Assembly: GCA_024654165.1 (NCBI GenBank)
Contig: JANLIP010000006.1
Span: forward strand, 1-10,126
From: Candidatus Kaiserbacteria bacterium
GTDB lineage: Bacteria > Patescibacteriota > Minisyncoccia > Phycocordibacterales > UBA2100
Direction of reading: 5' to 3'
Length of the DNA: 10,126 nucleotides
How positions within the stretch are numbered: the stretch's first letter is position 1; each line of letters starts with the position of its first letter. Positions 1,007 to 10,126 of this stretch are shown here, piece by piece. Position numbers and translations under genes: made by a program. Below the pieces are notes generated by a model. That model worked only from the letters and a program-made list of their open reading frames with translations. It searched no databases and was not told where the DNA came from.

Positions 1007-1028
1007 TTAGAGAGAATATGCCTGCCCC

Positions 1029-1054
1029 GTAGCCAGCGCGAAGCGCTGTGGTAC
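1029..1054. other. Imperfect hairpin downstream of efp
   Basis: CAGCGC (1034-1039) pairs with GCGCTG (1043-1048) around a GAA loop. The stem can be extended outwards to GTA (1029-1031) and TAC (1052-1054) across a bulge and a mismatch. No T-tract follows. It lies 23 bases after the efp stop and ahead of the main terminator, so it may be a 3'-end stabilising or processing structure. Confidence 0.4.
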
Positions 1055-1089
1055 TGTGGTGGAAAGGGTGGAGAAAAACTAAAAACATT

Positions 1090-1395: not shown

Positions 1396-1439
1396 GTTAG
1401 ATTTTCTTAACGAGTAATAACGAGTTTAGCAAATCTTAC

Positions 1440-1554
1440 ACCCGCCCACCCTCCTAAATTTCTTGGCTTGTTGTATTTAGTCATATACATTCATTACGTT
1501 ATATTTTAGCTTTTCTAAAAGATTTTGTTAAGAAATTTGGGCGGGTAGGCGGGT
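1440..1554 (-). repeat. Long inverted repeat in the ssb-rpsR intergenic region
   Basis: The arms 1440-1464 and 1530-1554 are reverse complements at 22 of 25 positions. As minus-strand RNA, one mismatch becomes a G-U pair, giving 23 of 25. The stem has two parts, AAATTTCTT/AAGAAATTT nearest the loop and a GC-rich CCCGCC-type part farther out. The loop is 65 bases and holds a small stem, TTTTAG (1504-1509) with CTAAAA (1515-1520). The 3' arm on the mRNA is purine-rich and contains AGGAGGGT about 50 bases before the rpsR start, too far away to act as its ribosome site. The better pairing on the minus strand suggests an RNA element of the operon. Confidence 0.7.
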
Positions 1555-1591: not shown

Positions 1592-2044
1592 CTAGAAAGG
1601 TATATCGTCCGGATTAATGTCATCTTTCGGGTACTCAACGCCGGAACCACTAGATGAAGGCGCATCATCCCCCTGCGGTTCCTCCCGCTTTGCTCCGCCG
1701 GCGGATCCACCGCTTCCCTTCGGCCCAAACTGCACGCGATCTGCTATTACCTCCGTGCGATATTTCTTCTCTCCGCTTGTTTTGTCGTCCCAGCTCCTGG
1801 TCTGCAAGCGTCCTTCAATAAACACAGAGCTCCCCTTTTTCATGTACTGCGCTACGGTATCTGCCTGACGGCCGAAAACTACCACGTTGTGAAAATCTGT
1901 CTGCTCTTGTTTCTTTCCGTCCCTGTCGCGAAAGACGCGGTTTGTTGCAATTGAGAAATTGACTACATTCATGCCGGAAGGAAGCGCCTTCAACTCCGGG
2001 TCGCGAGTGAGATTGCCAAACAAGATTACTTTATTTATGTACAT
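1592..2044 (-). CDS. ssb: Single-stranded DNA-binding protein
   Basis: SSB coats single-stranded DNA in replication and repair. The product has 150 residues. The OB-fold domain covers residues 1-105 and opens with MYINKVILFGNLTRDPEL, followed by FSIATNR, TDFHNVVVFGRQAD, YMKKGSSVFIEGRL and the strand YRTEVIADRVQF. A glycine/serine-rich disordered linker (about 108-137) follows. The acidic tip ends in NPDDIPF, the conserved C-terminal peptide through which SSB recruits partners, RecO among them in characterised bacteria. It lies between rpsF and rpsR, the standard operon order. The start at 2044 follows a 58-base spacer that contains a heptad repeat array; no Shine-Dalgarno is visible. Confidence 0.97.
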   Translation of the reverse strand: MYINKVILFGNLTRDPELKALPSGMNVVNFSIATNRVFRDRDGKKQEQTDFHNVVVFGRQADTVAQYMKKGSSVFIEGRLQTRSWDDKTSGEKKYRTEVIADRVQFGPKGSGGSAGGAKREEPQGDDAPSSSGSGVEYPKDDINPDDIPF

Positions 2045-2050
2045 AAATGA

Positions 2051-2085
2051 ATAGCTTCTAGGGACTAGCTTCTAGGGGCTAGAGA
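2051..2085. repeat. Heptad tandem repeat array in the rpsF-ssb gap
   Basis: There are five 7-bp units in exact register over 35 bp: one degenerate unit (ATAGCTT) followed by four with a constant CTAG core and three variable bases, for example CTAGCTT and CTAGGGG. The array is bracketed by the 6-bp direct repeat CATAAA at 2042-2047 and 2095-2100. The first copy overlaps the ssb start codon. Comparable arrays lie at 7606-7640 and 9642-9676. Confidence 0.8.
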
Positions 2086-2102
2086 AAATAATATCATAAA
2101 AA

Positions 2103-2675
2103 TTATTCGGTTGTGATGTCTCGCAGGGCCTTCTCCAGGTCTTCTTCGGAAACAGGAACGGCGCTTTCTTCAGTCGGAGCGCGCTTCGGGGAAGATTTTA
2201 TCGTGTCTGTGCGCTTCACCTCGCGCAGAGTCGGTGGCTTCATTTTTGCACGCGTGTCTTCGCGCACAGTCCTAAAAATACCGAAACGAAGAATGTTGGC
2301 GTCAGATTTTAGCTTTTCCATAAGGACAGAGGCGGTTGAAACGGCTGATTCAAATTTTATCCATCCAAAATATCCGCGGTCATATTCTACCCTCTTTTCA
2401 CCTTCAACGGCGAGAGCGCTCATTGGGTACGCAAGCCGAATCAACGAAGGAGCGCCTTCTGCAATGAAAGCCGCTTTTCCTCCGGTGGAGGATCCGTCTC
2501 CGGCGGACTCAATGATACTGCGAATCCCGCTTACAATTTTCTCAACATCTTCCTCTTTGACTGTGGGGATGATGTGGTAACCGAGTTCGTATATACGCGG
2601 TTCAGCCGGCCCGTCTTCCACAGGCATAGCAACAGCCAAATCTGCGTCTAATAGTGTTGTTTCTTCAGCAGTCAT
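2103..2675 (-). CDS. rpsF: 30S ribosomal protein S6, extended form
   Basis: S6 pairs with S18 on the 30S platform. The core begins at RIYELGYHIIPTVKEEDVEKIV (from about residue 27), with the family's ferredoxin-like pattern, LIRLAYPM in the position of the usual R-L-A-Y-P motif, and RGYFGWIKFE as the third strand. At 190 residues it is about twice the length of E. coli S6 without its tail. It carries an N-terminal acidic extension of about 26 residues and a basic-then-acidic C-terminal tail of about 50 residues (KMKPPTLREVKR onwards). Such extensions are common in Parcubacteria as I recall. A shorter start at Met17 is possible and would remove most of the N-terminal extension. It begins 43 bases after tatD. 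Confidence 0.92.
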   Translation of the reverse strand: MTAEETTLLDADLAVAMPVEDGPAEPRIYELGYHIIPTVKEEDVEKIVSGIRSIIESAGDGSSTGGKAAFIAEGAPSLIRLAYPMSALAVEGEKRVEYDRGYFGWIKFESAVSTASVLMEKLKSDANILRFGIFRTVREDTRAKMKPPTLREVKRTDTIKSSPKRAPTEESAVPVSEEDLEKALRDITTE

Positions 2676-2718
2676 GTGGGGAGCACTTTAGCACATATAC
2701 TAGCCGTAGGGCAACACC

Positions 2719-3558
2719 CTAGAAACCAAAGACTCTGCGCGCATTGGCAAGTATCTGATTAGATACAGTCTCTAAATCCTCCCCGCGAATTCTTGCGATT
2801 GCACGAACGACCTCTTGCACATATAAGGGCTCGTTGCGCTTCCCGCGATGAGGAACCGGCGTCACATATGGCGCATCGGTCTCCGAGAGAATCATATCAA
2901 GCGGGGCATTTTTCACGACCTCGTCGTAATCATGAGTAAATGTAAGAACGCCGGTGAATGAGAGCGTGAATCCGATGTTCAGAAACTGCTTCGCGATATT
3001 CCAATCTCCCGCAAAAAAGTGCACATCTCCTCTGACCGTCGCATGCGTTTTGATTATTTCAAGCGCGTCTTCGTAGGCGTTGCCTACTTCGCCAAGGCTT
3101 CGAAGGCCAGGCCTAATATGCAACATTAACGGTTTCTTGAGAGCATTCGCCAGTTCAATTTGCTGAATAAATACCTTCTTCTGGATTTCTTTCGTGCTTT
3201 CGTCCGAACGGTAATAATCCAGCCCACACTCTCCCACCGCAATCACGCGCGGATTCTTCCCCAACATTTCGTATGCGCTCATATCAAAAACTTCTCCGCG
3301 CGATGTAAACTCTTTTCCTCCAACACCCAATTCTTGTACATCGTGATACGACTTCGTCGTGTGAACGGGGTGCAGGCCGATTGTCGCATACACATTGTTG
3401 TACTTCTCCGCAAGCGCCACTGCCGCCTTTGATGTATCAAATTGCGTACCGACCACATTCATTCCCACCCCCGCATCCTTCGCGCGCACAATAACCTCCT
3501 CGCGGTCTTCGTTGTACGCGACAAAATTCGTATGCGCGTGCGCGTCAAAGTACCTCAT
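2719..3558 (-). CDS. tatD: TatD-family metal-dependent hydrolase / DNase
   Basis: This is a TIM-barrel metal-dependent hydrolase; characterised TatD proteins are 3'-5' exonucleases involved in DNA repair or fragmentation. The product has 279 residues. Metal ligands expected for the family are visible: His7 and His9 (DAHAH), Glu110 (VGECGLDYY), His147 (LMLHIRP), His180 (DVHFFAGD) and Asp228 (SETDAPYVTP). An insertion of about 25 residues sits after GLHPVH (about 70-95). It is longer than the usual loop there but keeps the frame open. The start is two bases after the metG stop, so translation is probably coupled to metG, a pairing seen in many bacteria. The TAG stop lies in a small TAGGG/CCCTA hairpin (2707-2721). 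Confidence 0.93.
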   Translation of the reverse strand: MRYFDAHAHTNFVAYNEDREEVIVRAKDAGVGMNVVGTQFDTSKAAVALAEKYNNVYATIGLHPVHTTKSYHDVQELGVGGKEFTSRGEVFDMSAYEMLGKNPRVIAVGECGLDYYRSDESTKEIQKKVFIQQIELANALKKPLMLHIRPGLRSLGEVGNAYEDALEIIKTHATVRGDVHFFAGDWNIAKQFLNIGFTLSFTGVLTFTHDYDEVVKNAPLDMILSETDAPYVTPVPHRGKRNEPLYVQEVVRAIARIRGEDLETVSNQILANARRVFGF

Positions 3559-3560
3559 AT

Positions 3561-5057
3561 TTAATCTTTGCGCGGGAAAAGATTCGCGGGTTTCTTATTT
3601 GTCTTTGTTGCCTCAATGATGGTTTTTGATGTATCTGGCATGAATGGTTCAAGCATACAACCGATGCGATAAAGATTGAGTACCAAGTTTTTTATCACTT
3701 CGATTCCTTCTTCGGTTTTTTCCTTGATCAAAGAAAACGGTTTTTTCTCCGTAATTTCTCTGTCCAAATCACCCATCTTAGACCAAATATATTCCATCGC
3801 CAGATCAACTCTATATTTTCCAAGCATCTCATCGATATACCCACCTTGAAAGCGGTATCCATGACTCTCAACGCCAACCGGCCTGTCAAGATGATCCTCG
3901 GCCATCTTCATAACTCTGGATAGGAGGTTGCCTATGCCATTCGCAAGATTGGCGTTATATGCCTCCTTAAATTTCGCAACTGTAAAATCAGAGTCTTCAA
4001 AAGGATGAATGTGCCGTGTGAGAAAATAGCGCAAAGCATCAGCCCCATATTCATCCGCAATCGCGATAGGATCAATTACATTTCCGAGCGATTTGGACAT
4101 CTTCTGCCCGCCAACATTTATGAATCCGTGTATAACTATCTGCTTTGATGGAGGAAGCCCTGCAGACATAAGCATCGCCTGCCACATGGCCGCCTGCTGG
4201 CGTATCTGGTCCTTCCCCGCCATTTGAATTCCATTTGGGTGTTCCTTCGTACCCCAGAATTTTGTAAATAAGTTCTCCGGCTCGCCCGCCTTAGCTTCAG
4301 CGGAGGCGGGCCAACCAAGAGTGGAGATGTAATTGATAAGGGCGTCAAACCACACGTACATGACATGGTCTCTATCGCCCGGTACGGGAATTCCCCACGG
4401 CATCTTTTTGGCAAGGCGAGATACGCTGAAATCTTCCAGTCCCGCCTCAACAAACTTCTTTATCTCGTTGAAACGAAAGTCCGGCACTACGAAATCCGGC
4501 TGCTTCTTGTAGAGATCAAGCAGCTCTTTTTGATACTTTGACCAGCGGAAAAAATAATTCTCCTCGTTGATGAGTTCGATTTCAAGGTTCGTATGTATCG
4601 GGCATCGTCCATCAACAATTTCCGAATCAGTTTTTTCCAATTCGCACCCGACGCAATATTTCAGCTGGTAATTTTTCTTATAAATATCGCTGTTCTTTAG
4701 ACAGAGCCTCCAAAACTCTTGCGCCGCCTTCTTGTGATGCGAATCTGTGGTGCGGATAAAATGCAGGTTGGGATACAGGTTCAATTTATCTTTGAGGTTT
4801 TGGAATTTCTCCGCATATTCATTCACATACTCTTGCGGTTCCTTCCCTTCTTCAAGCGCATTGCGGTAAATCTTGATGCCGTGTTCGTCCGTGCCAGTGT
4901 TAAAAAACACTTCGTCGCCCAAAAGCTTATGGTACCGGGCAGAGATATCCGCGTGCACTATTTCCAGCGCGAATCCTATATGCGGATCCGCGTTTACGTA
5001 CGGAAGGGTTGTCGTAAGATAAAAATTCTTCACCCCGTTAGAAGCTTGTTCTTTCAT
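3561..5057 (-). CDS. metG: Methionyl-tRNA synthetase
   Basis: MetRS charges tRNA-Met with methionine and supplies initiator tRNA. It is a class I enzyme: HIGF (26-29) is the HIGH motif and KMSKS (319-323) the second signature, inside the conserved context GGQKMSKSLGNVIDP. A zinc-knuckle-like insert is visible with Cys135, Cys138, Cys152 and His155. WFDALINYIS and MAGKDQIRQQ are also typical. At 498 residues it stops after the helical anticodon domain and lacks the C-terminal EMAP-like tRNA-binding domain. Residues 250-258 come from an inserted palindromic element. The ATG at 5057 adds eight residues before the typical opening KNFYLTTTLPYVN. A GTG at 5033 would start the protein exactly there and is a serious alternative. 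Confidence 0.97.
   Translation of the reverse strand: MKEQASNGVKNFYLTTTLPYVNADPHIGFALEIVHADISARYHKLLGDEVFFNTGTDEHGIKIYRNALEEGKEPQEYVNEYAEKFQNLKDKLNLYPNLHFIRTTDSHHKKAAQEFWRLCLKNSDIYKKNYQLKYCVGCELEKTDSEIVDGRCPIHTNLEIELINEENYFFRWSKYQKELLDLYKKQPDFVVPDFRFNEIKKFVEAGLEDFSVSRLAKKMPWGIPVPGDRDHVMYVWFDALINYISTLGWPASAEAKAGEPENLFTKFWGTKEHPNGIQMAGKDQIRQQAAMWQAMLMSAGLPPSKQIVIHGFINVGGQKMSKSLGNVIDPIAIADEYGADALRYFLTRHIHPFEDSDFTVAKFKEAYNANLANGIGNLLSRVMKMAEDHLDRPVGVESHGYRFQGGYIDEMLGKYRVDLAMEYIWSKMGDLDREITEKKPFSLIKEKTEEGIEVIKNLVLNLYRIGCMLEPFMPDTSKTIIEATKTNKKPANLFPRKD
4284..4311. repeat. Palindromic element inserted in frame in metG
   Basis: GCCCGCCT (4284-4291) pairs perfectly with AGGCGGGC (4304-4311) around a 12-base loop. 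On the metG strand it encodes residues 250-258 (P-A-S-A-E-A-K-A-G), an Ala/Gly-rich stretch between the conserved LGWP and the FTKFWG segment, where I recall other MetRS proteins having a shorter join. Palindromic repeats of this GCCCGCC...GGCGGGC type recur in Parcubacteria genomes in my recollection, and the situation parallels the palindromic elements found inside Rickettsia genes. Confidence 0.65.
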
Positions 5058-5129
5058 AAGTAATATTGATTATTGTTTCACTACCTCGTCCCCTTGCCAA
5101 AACTTCCGAACGCTGGCTTCTAACGGGGT
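5032..5129 (-). repeat. Inverted repeat around the metG start
   Basis: ACCCCGTTAGAAGC (5032-5045) is the exact reverse complement of 5116-5129, a 14-bp perfect stem with a 70-base loop. On the mRNA the loop holds the ATG at 5057. The 3' arm covers codons 5-8 and ends on the alternative GTG start at 5033. The arm motif CCCGTTAGAA resembles CCCGTTAGGA in the efp leader repeat (311-320). No T-box signature was found. Confidence 0.7.
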
Positions 5130-5148
5130 TCATGTCCATTTCTTTCAA

Positions 5149-6210
5149 TCACTCTTCCAAAACAGCAAAAGACCTTCTCTTCCCTATGTCTTTTACCAAT
5201 TCCTGTATCGTCGCGGCAGCCGGAACAGAAAGAAGGATTCCCAAAAAACCTGCAAGCTTCGCGCCCACGATAAGAGCCAATATCACTAAGAGTGCGGGAA
5301 CTCCTACGACCCTGGTTACAACGAGCGGATAAATCAAATGATTTTCAAATTGCTGGACAATTGCGTAAAGCGCGACAGTAAGAAAGCCAAGGGTCGCACC
5401 GCCGTCTACGAAACCGATGATGACCGCCGGCACTGCCGCGAGAGTGGGGCCGAACACGGGGATAATCTCAAATACCGCGGCAATGATAGACAATAGCAAC
5501 GCATGTTTTACTCCCAGAATGGTGAGTCCCAGATACACGAGAACTCCCATGATTACGGCAAGAATCAGCTGCCCCTGCATCCACAATCCGATTTTATTTT
5601 GGGAGCGCCTCCACAAATCCAGAACGTACGCGTGATATTTAACAGGAGTAACAACGCGCAGAAAATCGTCTACGCCAGTTTCTATCACTGCAAAGTAAAA
5701 AGAGAAAACGACAATGAGTATAAACGAGAACACCCCGCCAAACACGTTGCTTGCAGTCTCAAAAGCGCTGCCGAACGTTCCGTTCACGACTAGGGCACTG
5801 CGCACGCTCTCTATAATGTCGGCGCCGGTTACGGTACTCGGGGCCACGGTGCCCAGAAAGCGGGAGTATCCGTCAAACGCTCCCGCGCGAGTGAATGCGT
5901 CAAGATATGTAGGAAGCGTCGTCAAAAACGTTGCCAGTTCTTCCAAGACAGTCGGGAGAAAGAAATAGAACATGAGGAAAAAAACGCCGAACATTGTCAG
6001 GTAAACGGAGATGACAGAGAGAAGCCGCGGCAATTTTCGCCGCATCAGGGCCGCGATGGCGGGTTCTATGGACGAAGCGATTACGACTGCAGTTATAACC
6101 ACAAGAACAAAATCGCGCAGGTAATATATTAACCATGCAACCACCAAAATTAAGACTGTTTTTATTACAGTACCGGTCGTGATGGATATATGTAGAGGGC
6201 GGTCTTCCAT
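5149..6210 (-). CDS. AI-2E family (PerM/TqsA-like) membrane permease
   Basis: This is a polytopic inner-membrane protein of the AI-2E transporter family. The 353 residues show the family layout: two N-terminal membrane helices (about 13-29 and 32-50), a third near 66-86, and then a soluble amphipathic stretch (about 88-150) before the rest. Further segments lie at about 155-176, 210-232, 235-266, 272-288 and 300-332. The conserved C-terminal part has FEIIPVFGPTLAAVPAVIIGF and a QQFENHLIYPLVV motif. Members act as exporters or ion antiporters, and few are truly tied to autoinducer-2. No quorum-sensing gene is nearby, so the substrate is unknown. It begins 56 bases after glyS and ends 91 bases before metG, in the same direction as both. 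Confidence 0.92.
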   Translation of the reverse strand: MEDRPLHISITTGTVIKTVLILVVAWLIYYLRDFVLVVITAVVIASSIEPAIAALMRRKLPRLLSVISVYLTMFGVFFLMFYFFLPTVLEELATFLTTLPTYLDAFTRAGAFDGYSRFLGTVAPSTVTGADIIESVRSALVVNGTFGSAFETASNVFGGVFSFILIVVFSFYFAVIETGVDDFLRVVTPVKYHAYVLDLWRRSQNKIGLWMQGQLILAVIMGVLVYLGLTILGVKHALLLSIIAAVFEIIPVFGPTLAAVPAVIIGFVDGGATLGFLTVALYAIVQQFENHLIYPLVVTRVVGVPALLVILALIVGAKLAGFLGILLSVPAAATIQELVKDIGKRRSFAVLEE

Positions 6211-6266
6211 TCCCGCAATCGTAGCACAAGAAGAAAACGCGCGCTAAATAGACCCCGAGGGCATTT

Positions 6267-7568
6267 TTATACGTCTGCAGTTACGCGTTGCAAAAGCGCA
6301 CTTGTTGAAACGCGCTCTTGGGCCCCCGTATCACGATTTCGTACAGTAACGGTATCATCTTCAAGCGTCTGGAAATCTATAGTAATACATACGGGCGTGC
6401 CGATTTCGTCCTGCCTGCGATACCGCTTGCCTATATTGCCGTTGTCGTCCCACATGATTTGCGGCACCGCCTTTTTTAACTCTGTGTATATGCCGCGCGC
6501 CTTGGCGACAAGTTCGGGCTTATTTTTCAGAAGCGGAAAAACGGCTGCCTTAATCGGAGCAACTGCTGAATTAAATTTCAAATATACCCTGGTCTCTTCG
6601 CCCGAATCATCTTCAGTGTATGCAGATGCAAGAAGGGCAAGAATCGTACGGTCAACTCCAAACGACGGTTCAATGACATGAGGCACTGTCTTTTCTCCCG
6701 TGGCATCGTCAACAATCACTGAGAGCTCAACCCCAGAGGCTTTTGTATGCGCCTGCAAATCAAAATCGCCTCGGTATGCAAGCCCGCACAACTCTTTTCT
6801 GCCAAATGGAAAATCAAACTCAAAATCAATCGTGCGCTTGGAATAATGCGCGCGGTCGCCGTCTCCCACTTCTAATTCATGCACAGAATCGCGCATGATG
6901 CCTATGGCAGTGAGAAATTTGAGCACATTTTCTCTCCACGCCTCAAACCCCTTTTCCCATTCACCCGGTTGCACAAAATATTCAACTTCCATCTGTTCCA
7001 TTTCGCGAACGCGGAATAGAAAATCGCGCGGGGCTATCTCGTTGCGGAACGCTTTTCCTATTTGTGCAATTCCAAAAGGCAATTTCGGATGAAACGAATC
7101 AATAATATTTTTGAAATTGACGAAGATTCCCCCTGCTGTTTCGGGCCGGAGATATGAGACCGCGCCGGCGTCATCTGTCGCGCCGATATGCGTCTTGAAC
7201 ATCATATTAAACTGCTTAACCTCGCCGAATTGGCCCCCGCATTCCGGACACTTACCCTCTACCTGATCGGCACGAAATCTGTGACGGCATTTTTTGCACT
7301 CAACAAGCGGATCCTGAAACCCCTCTACATGCCCGCTTGCTTTCCACGCTTCGCTACTCATGATTATCGCGGTATCCACCCCATACATATCATCGCGATT
7401 CTGGACGAACATTCGCCACCATAAGTTCTTGATATTATTTTTGAGTTCCACGCCAAGAGGGCCATAATCCCAAAATCCGGAAAGCCCGCCGTAGATCTCG
7501 GAGCCCGGATAAATGAATCCGCGTCTCTTTGCGAGCGAGACTATCTTTTCCATCGTAACTTCGTTCAT
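6267..7568 (-). CDS. glyS: Glycyl-tRNA synthetase, homodimeric class II type
   Basis: This alpha2-type GlyRS charges tRNA-Gly. It opens MEKIVSLAKRRGFIYPGSEIYGG, the family's N-terminus. A zinc-binding pair C-x2-C...C-x2-C (about residues 91-110) follows. Motif 2 is FRNEIAPRDFLFRVREMEQME, and there is a GDFDLQAH segment, motif 3 EPSFGVDRTILALL, and an anticodon-binding domain from about 330 to the end. The RPETAQG signature reads RPETAGG here. I chose the ATG at 7568 (433 residues). A GTG at 7580 would add four residues, but it lies inside a direct repeat, and only the ATG gives an ATGA overlap with the upstream gene once that repeat is collapsed. No Shine-Dalgarno is seen. Confidence 0.96.
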   Translation of the reverse strand: MNEVTMEKIVSLAKRRGFIYPGSEIYGGLSGFWDYGPLGVELKNNIKNLWWRMFVQNRDDMYGVDTAIIMSSEAWKASGHVEGFQDPLVECKKCRHRFRADQVEGKCPECGGQFGEVKQFNMMFKTHIGATDDAGAVSYLRPETAGGIFVNFKNIIDSFHPKLPFGIAQIGKAFRNEIAPRDFLFRVREMEQMEVEYFVQPGEWEKGFEAWRENVLKFLTAIGIMRDSVHELEVGDGDRAHYSKRTIDFEFDFPFGRKELCGLAYRGDFDLQAHTKASGVELSVIVDDATGEKTVPHVIEPSFGVDRTILALLASAYTEDDSGEETRVYLKFNSAVAPIKAAVFPLLKNKPELVAKARGIYTELKKAVPQIMWDDNGNIGKRYRRQDEIGTPVCITIDFQTLEDDTVTVRNRDTGAQERVSTSALLQRVTADV

Positions 7569-7605
7569 AGGTTTGTACACCGTACCATATATTGTGTATT
7601 TCTTC

Positions 7606-7640
7606 AGGCTACAAGCTACCGGCTACGGGCTATAAGCTTT
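7606..7640. repeat. Heptad tandem repeat array between the surface-protein gene and glyS
   Basis: There are five 7-bp units in exact register over 35 bp, of the form nnGCTAC (AAGCTAC and CGGCTAC are two of them); the fourth ends in CTAT and the last is degenerate. A 10-bp direct repeat CACCGTACCA brackets the array at 7578-7587 and 7642-7651. The inner copy overlaps the stop codon of the surface-protein gene and the outer copy overlaps the alternative GTG start of glyS. Confidence 0.8.
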
Positions 7641-9590
7641 TCACCGTACCACAGTAGCATTAGTAGAAGAAAAACCGGCGTCCCCCAGAATATTCGTGGT
7701 TACGTCGGGCGCCGAGCGCGTGACTGCTAAGCCGGTAGAAGCATCCGTTCCGGAAAGAGAGATGTTCTGAAGAATGGCTGGTATCTGCCCGATCTGGCTG
7801 GTTGAGGGCGTAACCCCGAGAGCAATCGCCACTAGGCGCGGAGGATTTCCGCGAATTCCAACTCCGGATTCTATATCGCCGATATTCCACGTGATAGTCC
7901 CGTCGGTATTATTGAAAACAATATTCTCGGAGGAAGGAATGTACATTCCAAGAGAGCGCACATAAGGAGGAAGATGCGCCGTGAGCTTGGCGCCGGTAAT
8001 TTTATTAGTGGTATTAGTAACATTGAGAATAACTGCATAGGTCGTCTCTGCGCCCGATTGCGGAGGCATAGGTCCCACGCTTCCAAAAGGATTCTCGTAG
8101 TAATGCCCTTCGGCGCTCACTTCTAGATTACTGGCTACCTTCACGATTTGCGACGCAGTGGCCTGCAAGTTTTCCGGCACGCCGGATTCAGAGAGCCTTT
8201 TAACAGCGGCATGCACTGTGATGGTCAGTTTCGGATTCTTAAGAGCTTCCAAGACTTGTGCGGACGGCATTATAAATGAGAAACCTACGGTCCCTTTTGC
8301 GCCGGGGGCAAGGTTTGCCAAAGTGCCTTTTGTCGTATTTTTATCCCATAAGACAACGCTGTCTGAAGAGCGGTAAAAGCCATCTGTTGAACGCACGGTC
8401 TGGCCGTCGATTTCCACTCCTGAAAGCCTGGCGACTATTACGGCATCGGTAATGGGGGTTATCAGGTTGTTTTGCCATGCGATAGAAACATCAACTGTAT
8501 CCCCTGGGGCCACAACCACTCCGGAACCGCTTTCCTTGTTTACAGAAACGGCCATGTCCAAAAATGGTTTGGAAACGGCTACATTGTAAGAATTCACGGA
8601 GAGCACGGTATCTATGTTCGGGCTGTTCTTCGTGGTTCGCGTGCCAAGTGTAGTTCTAAACATGCGCTCATCGCCGGATTCTCCTATAAGCGTTCCCCTG
8701 ATAGAAATACTGATTGATTTTCCCGGCACTATGTCTCCGAGCTCCCACACGCCAGGACGCACAGGCTTCACATCTGCAGACGAGAAAATAAATCCGAAAG
8801 GATAGCCCACGCTCAACAAAACATCTCTTATAGGAACTTCTGCATTTGAGGATATGTTGAGGCGTATAATCATCGGCTGGCCGGAAACGGTCTCTTTGTT
8901 GCCTTCAATGGCGATAGAGATAGGACTGGAACTGAAAGTGAGTTCATACTCCGTCTCTGGCGTAACAAAAATGGCACTTGAGCCCTGGAGGCGGTACTCA
9001 AGCGCAACCTTGACCGTTGCACGCTGTCCCTCTGCGCCAGAAAATATGGCTTGCACAGGAATGTTGCGGACGCCTCCTTGTTCCAGTGTGCCGATTGAAA
9101 TGCGCTTGCCTAAAACATCTGAAGCAACGTCCGTAGAAGAACGAGTGCCTGCCGGGTACGTGATGAGCAAATCCGCGAGCTGTAGCGCAGTACTGTTTCT
9201 ATTTGAGACTGTTATCTGAAGTTCTGTTTTTCCACCGCCCGGAACATTTGGGGGGCCGGAAACTGAAATTCCGATGTTGCTTGACGCACCAGGTGAAGCG
9301 CCTCCTCCGATGATGAAATAGTATGCAAAGAAAACGGCTATGCCGATAATAAATGCTATTACAGCAAAGATAAACCATTTAAATATATTCTTAGTAAGCG
9401 CGGTGTTAGATGGCTCCGCGATTACGTCCTCGGGATTTTGGCCTTGTTTTTCCCAGTCTTCGGGGGGAGATGTTCTGTCCTGTGTTAAGAAACGCCGCGG
9501 ATGCTCTTTGATTTTGCCGGAAAGCGAACGCGAATACATCGCACGGCGCAAGCGCTCTATTTTCTCTTTCTCGTGTTCTGAAGAATCCAT
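7641..9590 (-). CDS. Membrane-anchored surface protein with repeated beta-sandwich domains
   Basis: I do not recognise a named gene. The product has 649 residues. A charged N-terminal cytoplasmic region (1-69, starting with the helix EHEKEKIERLRRAMYSR) precedes one membrane helix (about 70-94, FKWFIFAVIAFIIGIAVFFAYYF). A Gly/Ser-rich spacer and about 550 outward-facing residues follow. These look like four beta-sandwich repeats of 110-140 residues starting near 106, 222, 343 and 487. Each opens with a strand such as ISVSGPPNV or LEVSAEGHYY, with a P-G or S-G turn and an N-x-T/S-rich strand (ITVSNRNST, LNVTNTTNK). The style is that of DUF11/CARDB-like adhesion or cell-wall domains. There is no LPXTG or other sorting signal. 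The start has GAGGGG directly against the ATG. A role in the envelope or host contact is inferred. Confidence 0.8.
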   Translation of the reverse strand: MDSSEHEKEKIERLRRAMYSRSLSGKIKEHPRRFLTQDRTSPPEDWEKQGQNPEDVIAEPSNTALTKNIFKWFIFAVIAFIIGIAVFFAYYFIIGGGASPGASSNIGISVSGPPNVPGGGKTELQITVSNRNSTALQLADLLITYPAGTRSSTDVASDVLGKRISIGTLEQGGVRNIPVQAIFSGAEGQRATVKVALEYRLQGSSAIFVTPETEYELTFSSSPISIAIEGNKETVSGQPMIIRLNISSNAEVPIRDVLLSVGYPFGFIFSSADVKPVRPGVWELGDIVPGKSISISIRGTLIGESGDERMFRTTLGTRTTKNSPNIDTVLSVNSYNVAVSKPFLDMAVSVNKESGSGVVVAPGDTVDVSIAWQNNLITPITDAVIVARLSGVEIDGQTVRSTDGFYRSSDSVVLWDKNTTKGTLANLAPGAKGTVGFSFIMPSAQVLEALKNPKLTITVHAAVKRLSESGVPENLQATASQIVKVASNLEVSAEGHYYENPFGSVGPMPPQSGAETTYAVILNVTNTTNKITGAKLTAHLPPYVRSLGMYIPSSENIVFNNTDGTITWNIGDIESGVGIRGNPPRLVAIALGVTPSTSQIGQIPAILQNISLSGTDASTGLAVTRSAPDVTTNILGDAGFSSTNATVVR

Positions 9591-9641
9591 CCCCTCAATA
9601 ATACCAGAATTTCAACGTAGTCTTCCTGGTTTCTGGTCCCC

Positions 9642-9676
9642 CTAGAAGCTAGTATCTAGCAGCTAGAAGCTGTCCC
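9642..9676. repeat. Heptad tandem repeat array in the recO-surface protein gap
   Basis: Four perfect CTAGnnn units (9642-9669), including two copies of CTAGAAG, are followed by a degenerate fifth unit, again 35 bp in total. An 8-bp direct repeat GTCCCCCT flanks the array at 9636-9643 and 9672-9679. The second copy reaches the recO stop codon. The remaining gap (9591-9635) has only a weak ACCAGAA/TTCTGGT stem (9603-9609 with 9631-9637). Confidence 0.8.
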
Positions 9677-9678
9677 CC

Positions 9679-10126
9679 TTACAGATGCGTTTCCGAAATT
9701 GCATGGTTTATCGTGCGCAACAGTACTTCGCGCATGGCGTCTGCCTCGCGCAAGCTTTCTTCTGTATAAGTCGTGTGCGTTAGGAGAGCGCTTTGCAATG
9801 CCTCGGAGGAAATGTACCCAAGCGTGTGCATAATCCTCGCTACGCAAATGAGTTCAATAGAAGGCCACGCTTCGCACTCGTCTTGCATGAGTGCACGATG
9901 CGCCTCTTTCAAAATATCAAAGAGGCGTTCATGCGCCTCCTCCCCCGCGACGAATCTAGTGACAAGCCCTGATATGCGCGCGAATGCGGATAAGGCTTTG
10001 GGATTCTTTTTGTTCGCGCCCCCTATCGCTTTTGCTCCGGCAAGGCGCCAGCCCGCCTTCCCCTTAACAAGAGCGACATGTGCAAGAGAATAATTCTGCA
10101 GAGAGTATCGCATCTTGGATTTTGTT
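9679..10126 (-). CDS. recO: DNA repair protein RecO, C-terminal part (5' end outside window)
   Basis: RecO loads RecA onto SSB-coated single strands and anneals DNA in the RecFOR pathway. The frame stays open through the right edge (T-K-S-K-M-R-Y-S-L-Q...), so the Met at 10113 is internal and the N-terminal OB domain lies outside. About 149 residues are visible. SKMRYSLQNYS followed by ALVKGKAGWRLAGA matches the end of the RecO OB domain (typically S-K-L-R-Y-S-L-Q...V-R-G-K-E-G-W-R-L), and an all-helical C-terminal domain follows (residues AFARISGLVTRFVAGEE to the end). No zinc-binding cysteine cluster is visible. The first ORF-like methionine could mislead an annotator into calling a short complete gene. 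The protein's usual partner SSB is encoded further along the same strand. Confidence 0.82.
   Translation of the reverse strand, partial: TKSKMRYSLQNYSLAHVALVKGKAGWRLAGAKAIGGANKKNPKALSAFARISGLVTRFVAGEEAHERLFDILKEAHRALMQDECEAWPSIELICVARIMHTLGYISSEALQSALLTHTTYTEESLREADAMREVLLRTINHAISETHL

Follow-up and report, generated by a model that had tools for sequence, protein, structure and literature searches.

Intergenic heptad arrays with a four-core format and changing cores in a Candidatus Kaiserbacteria genome and its relatives

Introduction

Heptameric tandem repeats between genes are known from heterocystous cyanobacteria as STRR. Such repeats are over-represented in bacteria, yet unexplained. 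Here we studied a stretch of 10,126 nucleotides (the window; positions 1 to 10,126 of contig JANLIP010000006.1, GenBank assembly GCA_024654165.1) from a Candidatus Kaiserbacteria bacterium of the phylum Patescibacteriota. Three of its intergenic gaps hold arrays of short cores, mostly CTAG or CTAC, set at exact 7-bp steps (Table 1). What are these arrays, and what keeps them in this form? The answer developed below is that they are recognised by their format more than by any one core, and that a protein docking on adjacent sites is a tentative reason for the format.

Results

Taken alone, the window arrays are moderately striking only. They lie where the preliminary description had placed them, each between co-directional (minus-strand) genes, and within the window they take the first three ranks at period 7, scoring 16, 18 and 20 of 28 positions against 19 for the best stretch of any other period (period 6). 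Tandem Repeats Finder, run on the window at score 30, reported array 1 (as period 14) and array 3 and missed array 2. CTAG had been called rare, which the window does not bear out: it has 20 against 17 expected from its trinucleotide counts. Direct repeats of 6 to 10 bp were said to bracket all three arrays; only array 2 has a pair of 10 bp, and the best at arrays 1 and 3 are of 6 bp.

The wider genome was more telling. Scanning it for further heptad arrays, as the preliminary description had proposed, gave 131 matches (64+67 on the two strands) to CTAN4CTAN4CTAN4CTA and none (0+0) to the reversed pattern. The three window arrays are members of a genome-wide class. When all 64 trinucleotides were scanned at periods 4 to 15 in three genomes, period 7 came top in each with 216, 294 and 305 four-in-a-row runs, and the runner-up was period 14 with 22, 52 and 45. 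A scan for any core, which accepted any four units that agreed in four or more columns, found 51 arrays at period 7 in the window's own genome (G000), 58 in G028 and 99 in G039. The best other period within 5 to 12 gave 5, 38 and 37, this being period 12 (tied with 9 in G000), which offers more columns for chance matching. Both scans lead at 7, so the period-7 excess is independent of our having chosen CTA. Most CTA arrays were intergenic, those inside open reading frames (ORFs) from a crude caller numbering 8/44 in G000, 4/62 in G028 and 13/34 in G039. The G000 sample comprised 20 contigs picked for arrays plus the window contig (151,647 of 616,030 bases); the G028 and most G039 stretches were in contig order, and some G023 and G044 stretches were picked for arm matches.

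Copy number set the class apart. Runs of three, four and five identical 4-mers (any 4-mer) at 7-bp steps numbered 16, 34 and 4 in G000, 32, 41 and 12 in G023, 35, 60 and 11 in G044, and 41, 50 and 6 in G039. The mode was thus exactly four in four of the five array-rich genomes. Single cores could be sharper still: 2, 20 and 0 for TTCG in G039 (mostly homologous copies) and 2, 14 and 0 for ACAG in G023. At periods 6 and 8, there were only 0-4 runs of at least four identical 4-mers per genome. It is this format that defines the class: 4-bp cores, usually four of them, that recur exactly every 7 bp and are separated by three freer bases.

The arrays could instead be a functionless mutational product. 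Replication or repair with a preferred 7-nt step would make them by slippage, template switching would copy an arm into its inverted partner, and the results would decay in tolerant gaps. Long perfect arrays do exist (GGTGGTA-type in L064, CTACAAC in L069), and slippage is likely there; moreover, PMC4692102 reports an idea of Mrazek's by which the bacterial excess of heptamers stems from the stretch of DNA that the polymerase holds. Against such an origin, copy number peaks at four rather than falling steadily, and adjacent units are not the most alike. Base identity of units at lag 1 and lag 2 was 0.42/0.44, 0.47/0.49, 0.41/0.47 and 0.42/0.46 in four genomes. Relative to shuffled unit order the lag-2 excess reached a permutation p of 0.004 in G039 and 0.033 in G023 (78 arrays, four runs of N having been removed from 82) and was not significant in G000 and G028. 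A unit resembles its neighbour no better than it does the unit after that, which is unlike the product of free slippage. The simple slippage suggested in the preliminary description is accordingly a poor fit, with neither a falling copy number (G028 apart) nor a gradient of neighbour likeness. Weighed with the comparisons between species below, we regard a purely mutational origin as unlikely.

We then compared cores. CTAG prevails in the window's own genome, and ACAG, GTAT, CGAA and CCTA are found elsewhere. Four-core ACAG arrays occurred in 22/52 genomes of the genus and CTAG ones in 23/52. G044 and G014 had 42 and 31 ACAG matches, both without CTAG; G000 had 38 CTAG matches and one ACAG. 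In such match counts a long perfect array is scored repeatedly (8/15 for G041, 8/11 for G045). The idea that the core supplies stop codons, with stops in three frames from TAG at period 7 and in all six from CTAG, was rejected, since ACAG/CTGT and CGAA/TTCG keep the format with a core that holds no stop. G-quadruplexes were likewise rejected for the CTAG, ACAG, ATAC, CGAA and CAAA cores, in which no two G are adjacent; families that bear GG (GGCA, AGGC, GGTT) may form them.

Cores also change at a fixed place. In 41 syntenic gaps compared between G000 and G023, by an array test that fires on 1.1% of coding stretches, seven held arrays in both species, two and five in one only, and 27 in neither (Fisher p = 0.001). 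Over 12 comparisons (8 distinct gaps) with an array in both species, the cores differed in 10, or more fairly in 10 of 13, as the rpsF-ssb gap of G023 and G044, with a common ACAG core, lay outside the 12. Different species use different cores, even where the gaps are orthologous, and so do different families of one genome. As the preliminary description had anticipated, some orthologous gaps carried an array in one species and none in another. An array in one species only was the commoner outcome (23 comparisons against 12 with arrays in both), as decay in tolerant gaps would predict, and the sharing of gaps could partly come from some gaps tolerating insertions. Among 30 rpsF-ssb loci of the genus, 17 gaps were short and empty by eye. 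CTA arrays stood there in the window species and two others, CAG/CTG arrays in four, two-unit remnants in four and something else in two.

The rpsF-ssb gap gave the best sign of function. The same ACAG/CTGT element precedes ssb in G021, G044 and G023 and is 85-88% identical, spacer included. Fourfold-site identity of ssb among these genomes was only 39%, 38% and 52% (21/54, 18/48 and 23/44). This suggests that the element is under constraint, which counts against a functionless product, although the high identity may reflect recent exchange among the three species. Elsewhere in these genomes, ACAG/CTGT elements mostly matched in their arms alone (16/52 genomes).

A second repeated element was found in G039. 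This 115-123-bp element has CGAA/TTCG arms and eight copies, which are 76-87% identical to the first, spacer included. Six of the eight lie in one 20-kb stretch, all in the same orientation to genes, and the translated ORFs of that stretch are, by eye, those of the ribosomal-protein S10/spc operon.

Arrays often face each other as the two arms of one gap. Among G028 CTA arrays no more than 150 bp apart, 14/18 pairs ran TAG-then-CTA and 1/18 the reverse. With any core admitted, same-gap arrays matched as inverted cores in 9/12 pairs of G000 (the other three fit both ways) and 14/20 of G023. In G023, pairs across one gene were inverted in 7 cases, direct in 7 and neither in 22, and farther pairs in 17, 16 and 146 of 179. 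A strict test, applied to non-palindromic arrays only, asked for a facing run, no more than 150 bp away, of three or more cores with exact complementarity; it found a facing partner for 3/19 arrays in G000, 19/51 in G023, 8/37 in G028 and 18/64 in G039, and none in a reversed-core control. Facing pairs are real, yet many arms are solitary. A search of the spacer side of the arms found it A-rich with no sharp shared motif, and no general rule of avoiding full complementarity between arms emerged.

Arms show a tendency towards the edges of gaps, where their purine-rich (TAG-type) strand runs from the gene inwards. The median distance to a start codon was 4 nt in G000 and 6 nt in G039, and that to a stop codon was -4 nt and 2.5 nt. 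Close to start codons, the core on the sense strand was CTA in 7/8 (G000), 27/34 (G028) and 6/8 (G039) cases; near stops, it was TAG in 4/4, 15/23 and 10/13, respectively. Such closeness to codons would suit an element acting as RNA, with an arm transcribed as a pyrimidine-rich 5' leader or a purine-rich 3' tail and working through structure or RNA-binding proteins. In one form, facing arms would pair as a hairpin bridging a stop codon and the start codon that follows. The placement of arms within the apparent ribosomal-protein operon of G039 (genes named by eye) also fits, as do the G028 words, which pair more within elements than when swapped (0.71 vs 0.46, sd 0.075). However, facing arms at the edges of any gap produce the CTA-near-start and TAG-near-stop rule, so the rule alone is no pointer to RNA. 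Arrays are present in convergent gaps too. G039 words pair less than swapped ones (0.145 vs 0.228), and arm duplexes within elements were not significantly better than those between elements (permutation p = 0.07 in G000, 0.19 in G028). RNAalifold folded the eight copies of the G039 element core to core with 27 pairs, not one of which had changed on both sides in a compensatory way, and the cold-shock domain does not follow the arrays. We consider an RNA-level role distinctly unlikely.

The preliminary description had also raised a mobile repeat family. Much about the arrays agrees with this: they form a genome-wide family, they are present or absent between species, orthologous gaps being filled in one and empty in another, and one G039 element has eight homologous copies. 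Palindromic elements resembling MITEs or REPINs, in families each with its own core, might therefore insert into gaps. RAYT-type Y1 transposases were found in 26/30 genomes with CTA arrays and 2/11 without (Fisher p = 9e-5). By contrast, none of 22 RAYT genes (3 + 19, with flanks of 500 or 170 bp) was flanked by a four-unit heptad array, two weak three-unit matches apart; RAYT and array counts both track guanine-plus-cytosine (GC) content, and within the genus RAYT correlates with arrays at only +0.43. Mobilisation by RAYT was accordingly rejected, its co-occurrence with arrays being undone by the array-free flanks and by GC. Target-site duplication was rejected too, flank likeness being at chance: direct repeats of at least 7 bp flanked two of 50 G000 arrays against 2.7 expected from swapped flanks, and the seen and expected counts in four other genomes were 6/5.5, 6/6.5, 13/9.4 and 9/11.4. 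Nor did the non-array parts of array-bearing gaps recur more often than array-free gaps: 0/24 vs 10/64 in G000, 1/29 vs 19/136 in G044, 11/40 vs 45/167 in G023, 10/31 vs 68/190 in G028 and 8/44 vs 45/220 in G039. With flanking repeats at chance and non-recurrent gap interiors in G000, insertion of mobile elements is the least probable of the accounts weighed here, and a quite improbable one.

RAYT-type genes themselves were present in 28/41 genomes (for example L031:4593-5267, L065:10835-11536, L088:6256-6990 and L192-L210). Many had a short perfect palindrome on either side, different from gene to gene (by eye).

Array presence is a lineage trait. The CTA pattern was matched in 30/41 genomes of the neighbourhood and in 151/286 drawn from the phylum. 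Array-rich genomes (G000, G023, G028 and G039) carried 17-34 arrays per 100 kb; the G000 value of 33.6 is biased upwards, its contigs having been chosen for arrays, and the G023 count of 82 includes four runs of N. Four congeners without CTA matches (G002, G004, G019 and G024) had 1, 0, 0 and 1 period-7 arrays of any core in 88, 91, 100 and 66 kb of sequence, one of the two arrays being a run of N. Across the genus, arrays drop as GC rises (Spearman -0.71, n=19), an inverse relation that a mutational origin would accommodate.

None of RHH_1, MutS, SbcD and the cold-shock domain divides array-rich from array-poor genomes. MutS_V was above cut-off in 1/41 genomes and SbcD in 0/41, array-rich and array-poor alike. 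The clade as a whole seems to lack mismatch repair and the hairpin nuclease, a lack that would favour mutational growth of arrays; set against this, the array-free congeners likewise have neither MutS nor SbcD. The lack of these proteins is permissive, not explanatory.

Scanning named genomes for four CTAG cores extended the range to many phyla among the matches listed. By their record titles, the matches listed include Nomurabacteria, Uhrbacteria, Microgenomates, Shewanella, Aestuariicella, Acidobacteriaceae and Subsaximicrobium. When 16 of the CTAG loci listed were examined, 15 had other arrays too. A single 8-kb stretch of Aestuariicella hydrocarbonica held 10 period-7 arrays; Shewanella canadensis is another named host of CTAG heptads. 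In Subsaximicrobium wynnwilliamsii, two 8-kb stretches (L235 and L277) held 19 and 20 period-7 arrays, several cores side by side.

Discussion

The preliminary description related the arrays to the STRR of cyanobacteria. That likeness stands, yet heptamers are not confined to that group, being published from Xanthomonas, Nostoc and Beggiatoaceae and found here, as CTAG heptads, well beyond it. For heptad arrays in Patescibacteria or Parcubacteria, no publication was found in the open-licence PMC literature. Heptameric intergenic repeats are thus already known, and it is the core-swapping four-core format that looks new.

The nearest published relatives, as far as the sections of the cited papers used here describe them, are the intergenic repeats GGGAATC or (GGGANTN)n of Xanthomonas and GGGGA(C/T)T of Nostoc (PMC4692102). 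These have four (plus one) conserved positions of seven and most often four units, and lie on the coding strand after a gene and on the non-coding strand before one; convergent pairs account for 70/186 sites in Xcc and 75/183 in Xac (PMC4692102). Our arrays share the 7-bp period, the intergenic position, the preference for four units, the facing pairs and the strand rule. In those sections the four units are tied to G-quadruplexes, and a gene-regulatory role was not found (PMC4692102). Unlike them, the CTAG, ACAG, GTAT and CGAA cores have no G-tracts, and the core changes among relatives and within a genome. Since the four-by-seven format recurs where G-tracts are missing, a quadruplex no longer accounts for the number of four units.

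Two further systems share part of the pattern. The TAACTGA repeat of Beggiatoaceae has a 7-bp period and 2-6 copies near start codons and in ribosomal-protein operons, with 68, 40 and 19 sets of two, three and four copies (PMC4679880). As described in the sections used, it differs from ours in being one exact heptamer (related ones are rarely repeated) in direct orientation with no facing arms, two copies being commonest; our arrays share no fixed heptamer. REPINs consist of two inverted arms around a spacer, lie between genes and form several families per genome; their palindromic REP arms are linked to a RAYT gene (PMC3116915). The inverted doublets in our gaps resemble them, but the arms here are heptad arrays and the RAYT neighbours carry other palindromes.

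The closest parallel in mechanism is the omega/parS system of plasmid pSM19035, in which contiguous 7-bp repeats overlap promoters, one dimer binds each repeat and at least four repeats are needed for a stable partition complex (PMC9499535). Our arrays have in common at least four contiguous 7-bp sites. The differences, on the portion of that paper used, are a WATCACW consensus, which the cores here do not match, and 7-10 repeats at each of a handful of sites. By this analogy we tentatively favour a cooperative protein-docking array, as a possibility short of an even chance, because omega gives a reason for both numbers, seven and four. A protein-binding array was also among the options listed in the preliminary description. 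A small dimeric DNA-binding protein would take the core at each 7-bp step, about four adjacent sites would be needed for a stable complex, and facing arms would bracket the gap, whether promoter or intercistronic spacer. The format would be kept because something reads it, and drift or replacement of the reader's specificity would give rise to dialects.

Several results weigh against this docking model. RHH_1 (PF01402) occurred in only 4/41 genomes, none of them G000, G023, G028 or G039, in a search that did not include the omega family and other RHH models. An RHH family was also absent among the 25 of 53 families listed from 116 small ORFs (116/185 were scanned, being 40/48 from G000 and the longest 76/137 from G044). 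The RHH_1 and small-ORF family searches thus identified no reader protein. Several cores stand side by side within single genomes and would require several readers. In G028, runs of three, four and five identical 4-mers fall steadily (65, 23 and 12), so that the mode is not four. Sharing of syntenic gaps did not exceed chance for G000 and G044 (22 gaps: both 2, one only 7 and 0, neither 13; Fisher p = 0.16) or for G023 and G044 (25 gaps: both 3, one only 6 and 3, neither 13; Fisher p = 0.36). Same-gap arrays matched weakly as inverted cores in G028 (8/21) and G039 (11/40), and most non-palindromic four-core arrays had no exact facing partner (16/19 in G000, 32/51 in G023, 29/37 in G028 and 46/64 in G039). 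Finally, constraint was seen at one locus only, rpsF-ssb.

A more sweeping proposal would make the arrays a cis-element code. The four-by-seven format, mostly placed at the edges of gaps, would be inherited while the core is replaced genome-wide between sister species, many gaps staying occupied, and co-evolving or sequence-agnostic machinery would operate across much of the phylum. The Xanthomonas, Nostoc and Beggiatoaceae heptamers would then be further dialects rather than G-quadruplexes or slippage products. We hold this to be unlikely as a whole. Whatever the mechanism, different cores in the same gaps separate format from sequence. The question thus becomes testable as one of a protein or structure that reads four sites at 7-bp steps, and CTAG heptads have named hosts, some of which are cultured.

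Genes and other features of the window

The flanking genes of the arrays are given in Table 1; ssb was found in 49/52 genomes of the genus. An Rfam search of the window gave 12 matches up to E 1, of which none reached its gathering score and none lay at the arrays.

Table 1. Arrays, neighbouring genes and repeats of the window
Feature	Position	Strand	Details
Array 1	2051..2085		CTAG x4 at 2058, 2065, 2072 and 2079 (7-bp steps), plus TAG at 2052; words on + strand CTT/GGA/CTT/GGG; between rpsF (stop side) and ssb (start side)
Array 2	7606..7640		CTAC at 7609, 7616 and 7623, CTAT at 7630 on the + strand; GTAG/ATAG on the sense strand of the minus-strand genes; immediately past the stop codon of the 7641..9590 gene
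Array 3	9642..9676		CTAG x4 at 9642, 9649, 9656 and 9663, plus CTG at 9670; between the 9679..10113 gene (stop side) and the 7641..9590 gene (start side)
ssb, single-strand binding protein	1592..2044	-	PF00436; downstream of array 1
rpsF-like, ribosomal protein S6	2103..2675	-	PF01250, E 3.3e-6, 27.6 bits (cut-off 27); upstream of array 1
Class II aminoacyl-tRNA synthetase	6267..7580	-	PF00587, PF03129; presumably of glycyl type; downstream of array 2
649-aa protein	7641..9590	-	no Pfam match at 0.001; upstream of array 2, downstream of array 3
144-aa ORF	9679..10113	-	no Pfam match; upstream of array 3
10-bp direct repeat, copy 1	7578..7587	+	CACCGTACCA; beside array 2
10-bp direct repeat, copy 2	7642..7651	+	CACCGTACCA; 3' end of the 7641..9590 gene
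41-bp dispersed repeat	1020..1060		97.6% identical to a gap in L049; in the EF-P-like/S18 gap
54-bp dispersed repeat	1396..1448		90.7% identical to a gap in L032; in the EF-P-like/S18 gap, shortly upstream of the S18 start

Read on the minus strand, the first copy of the direct repeat beside array 2 is TGGTACGGTG, which matches a promoter-like motif, TGnTAnnnT. This extended -10-like motif lay 6-9 nt upstream of the start codon in 16/135 ORFs of G000, 20/261 of G028 and 14/308 of G039 and was scarce at other distances from start codons. Examples were seen in the rpsF-ssb gaps of L094, L098, L099, L101, L106 and L110. On the strength of this spacing, the motifs before start codons are probably leaderless promoters.

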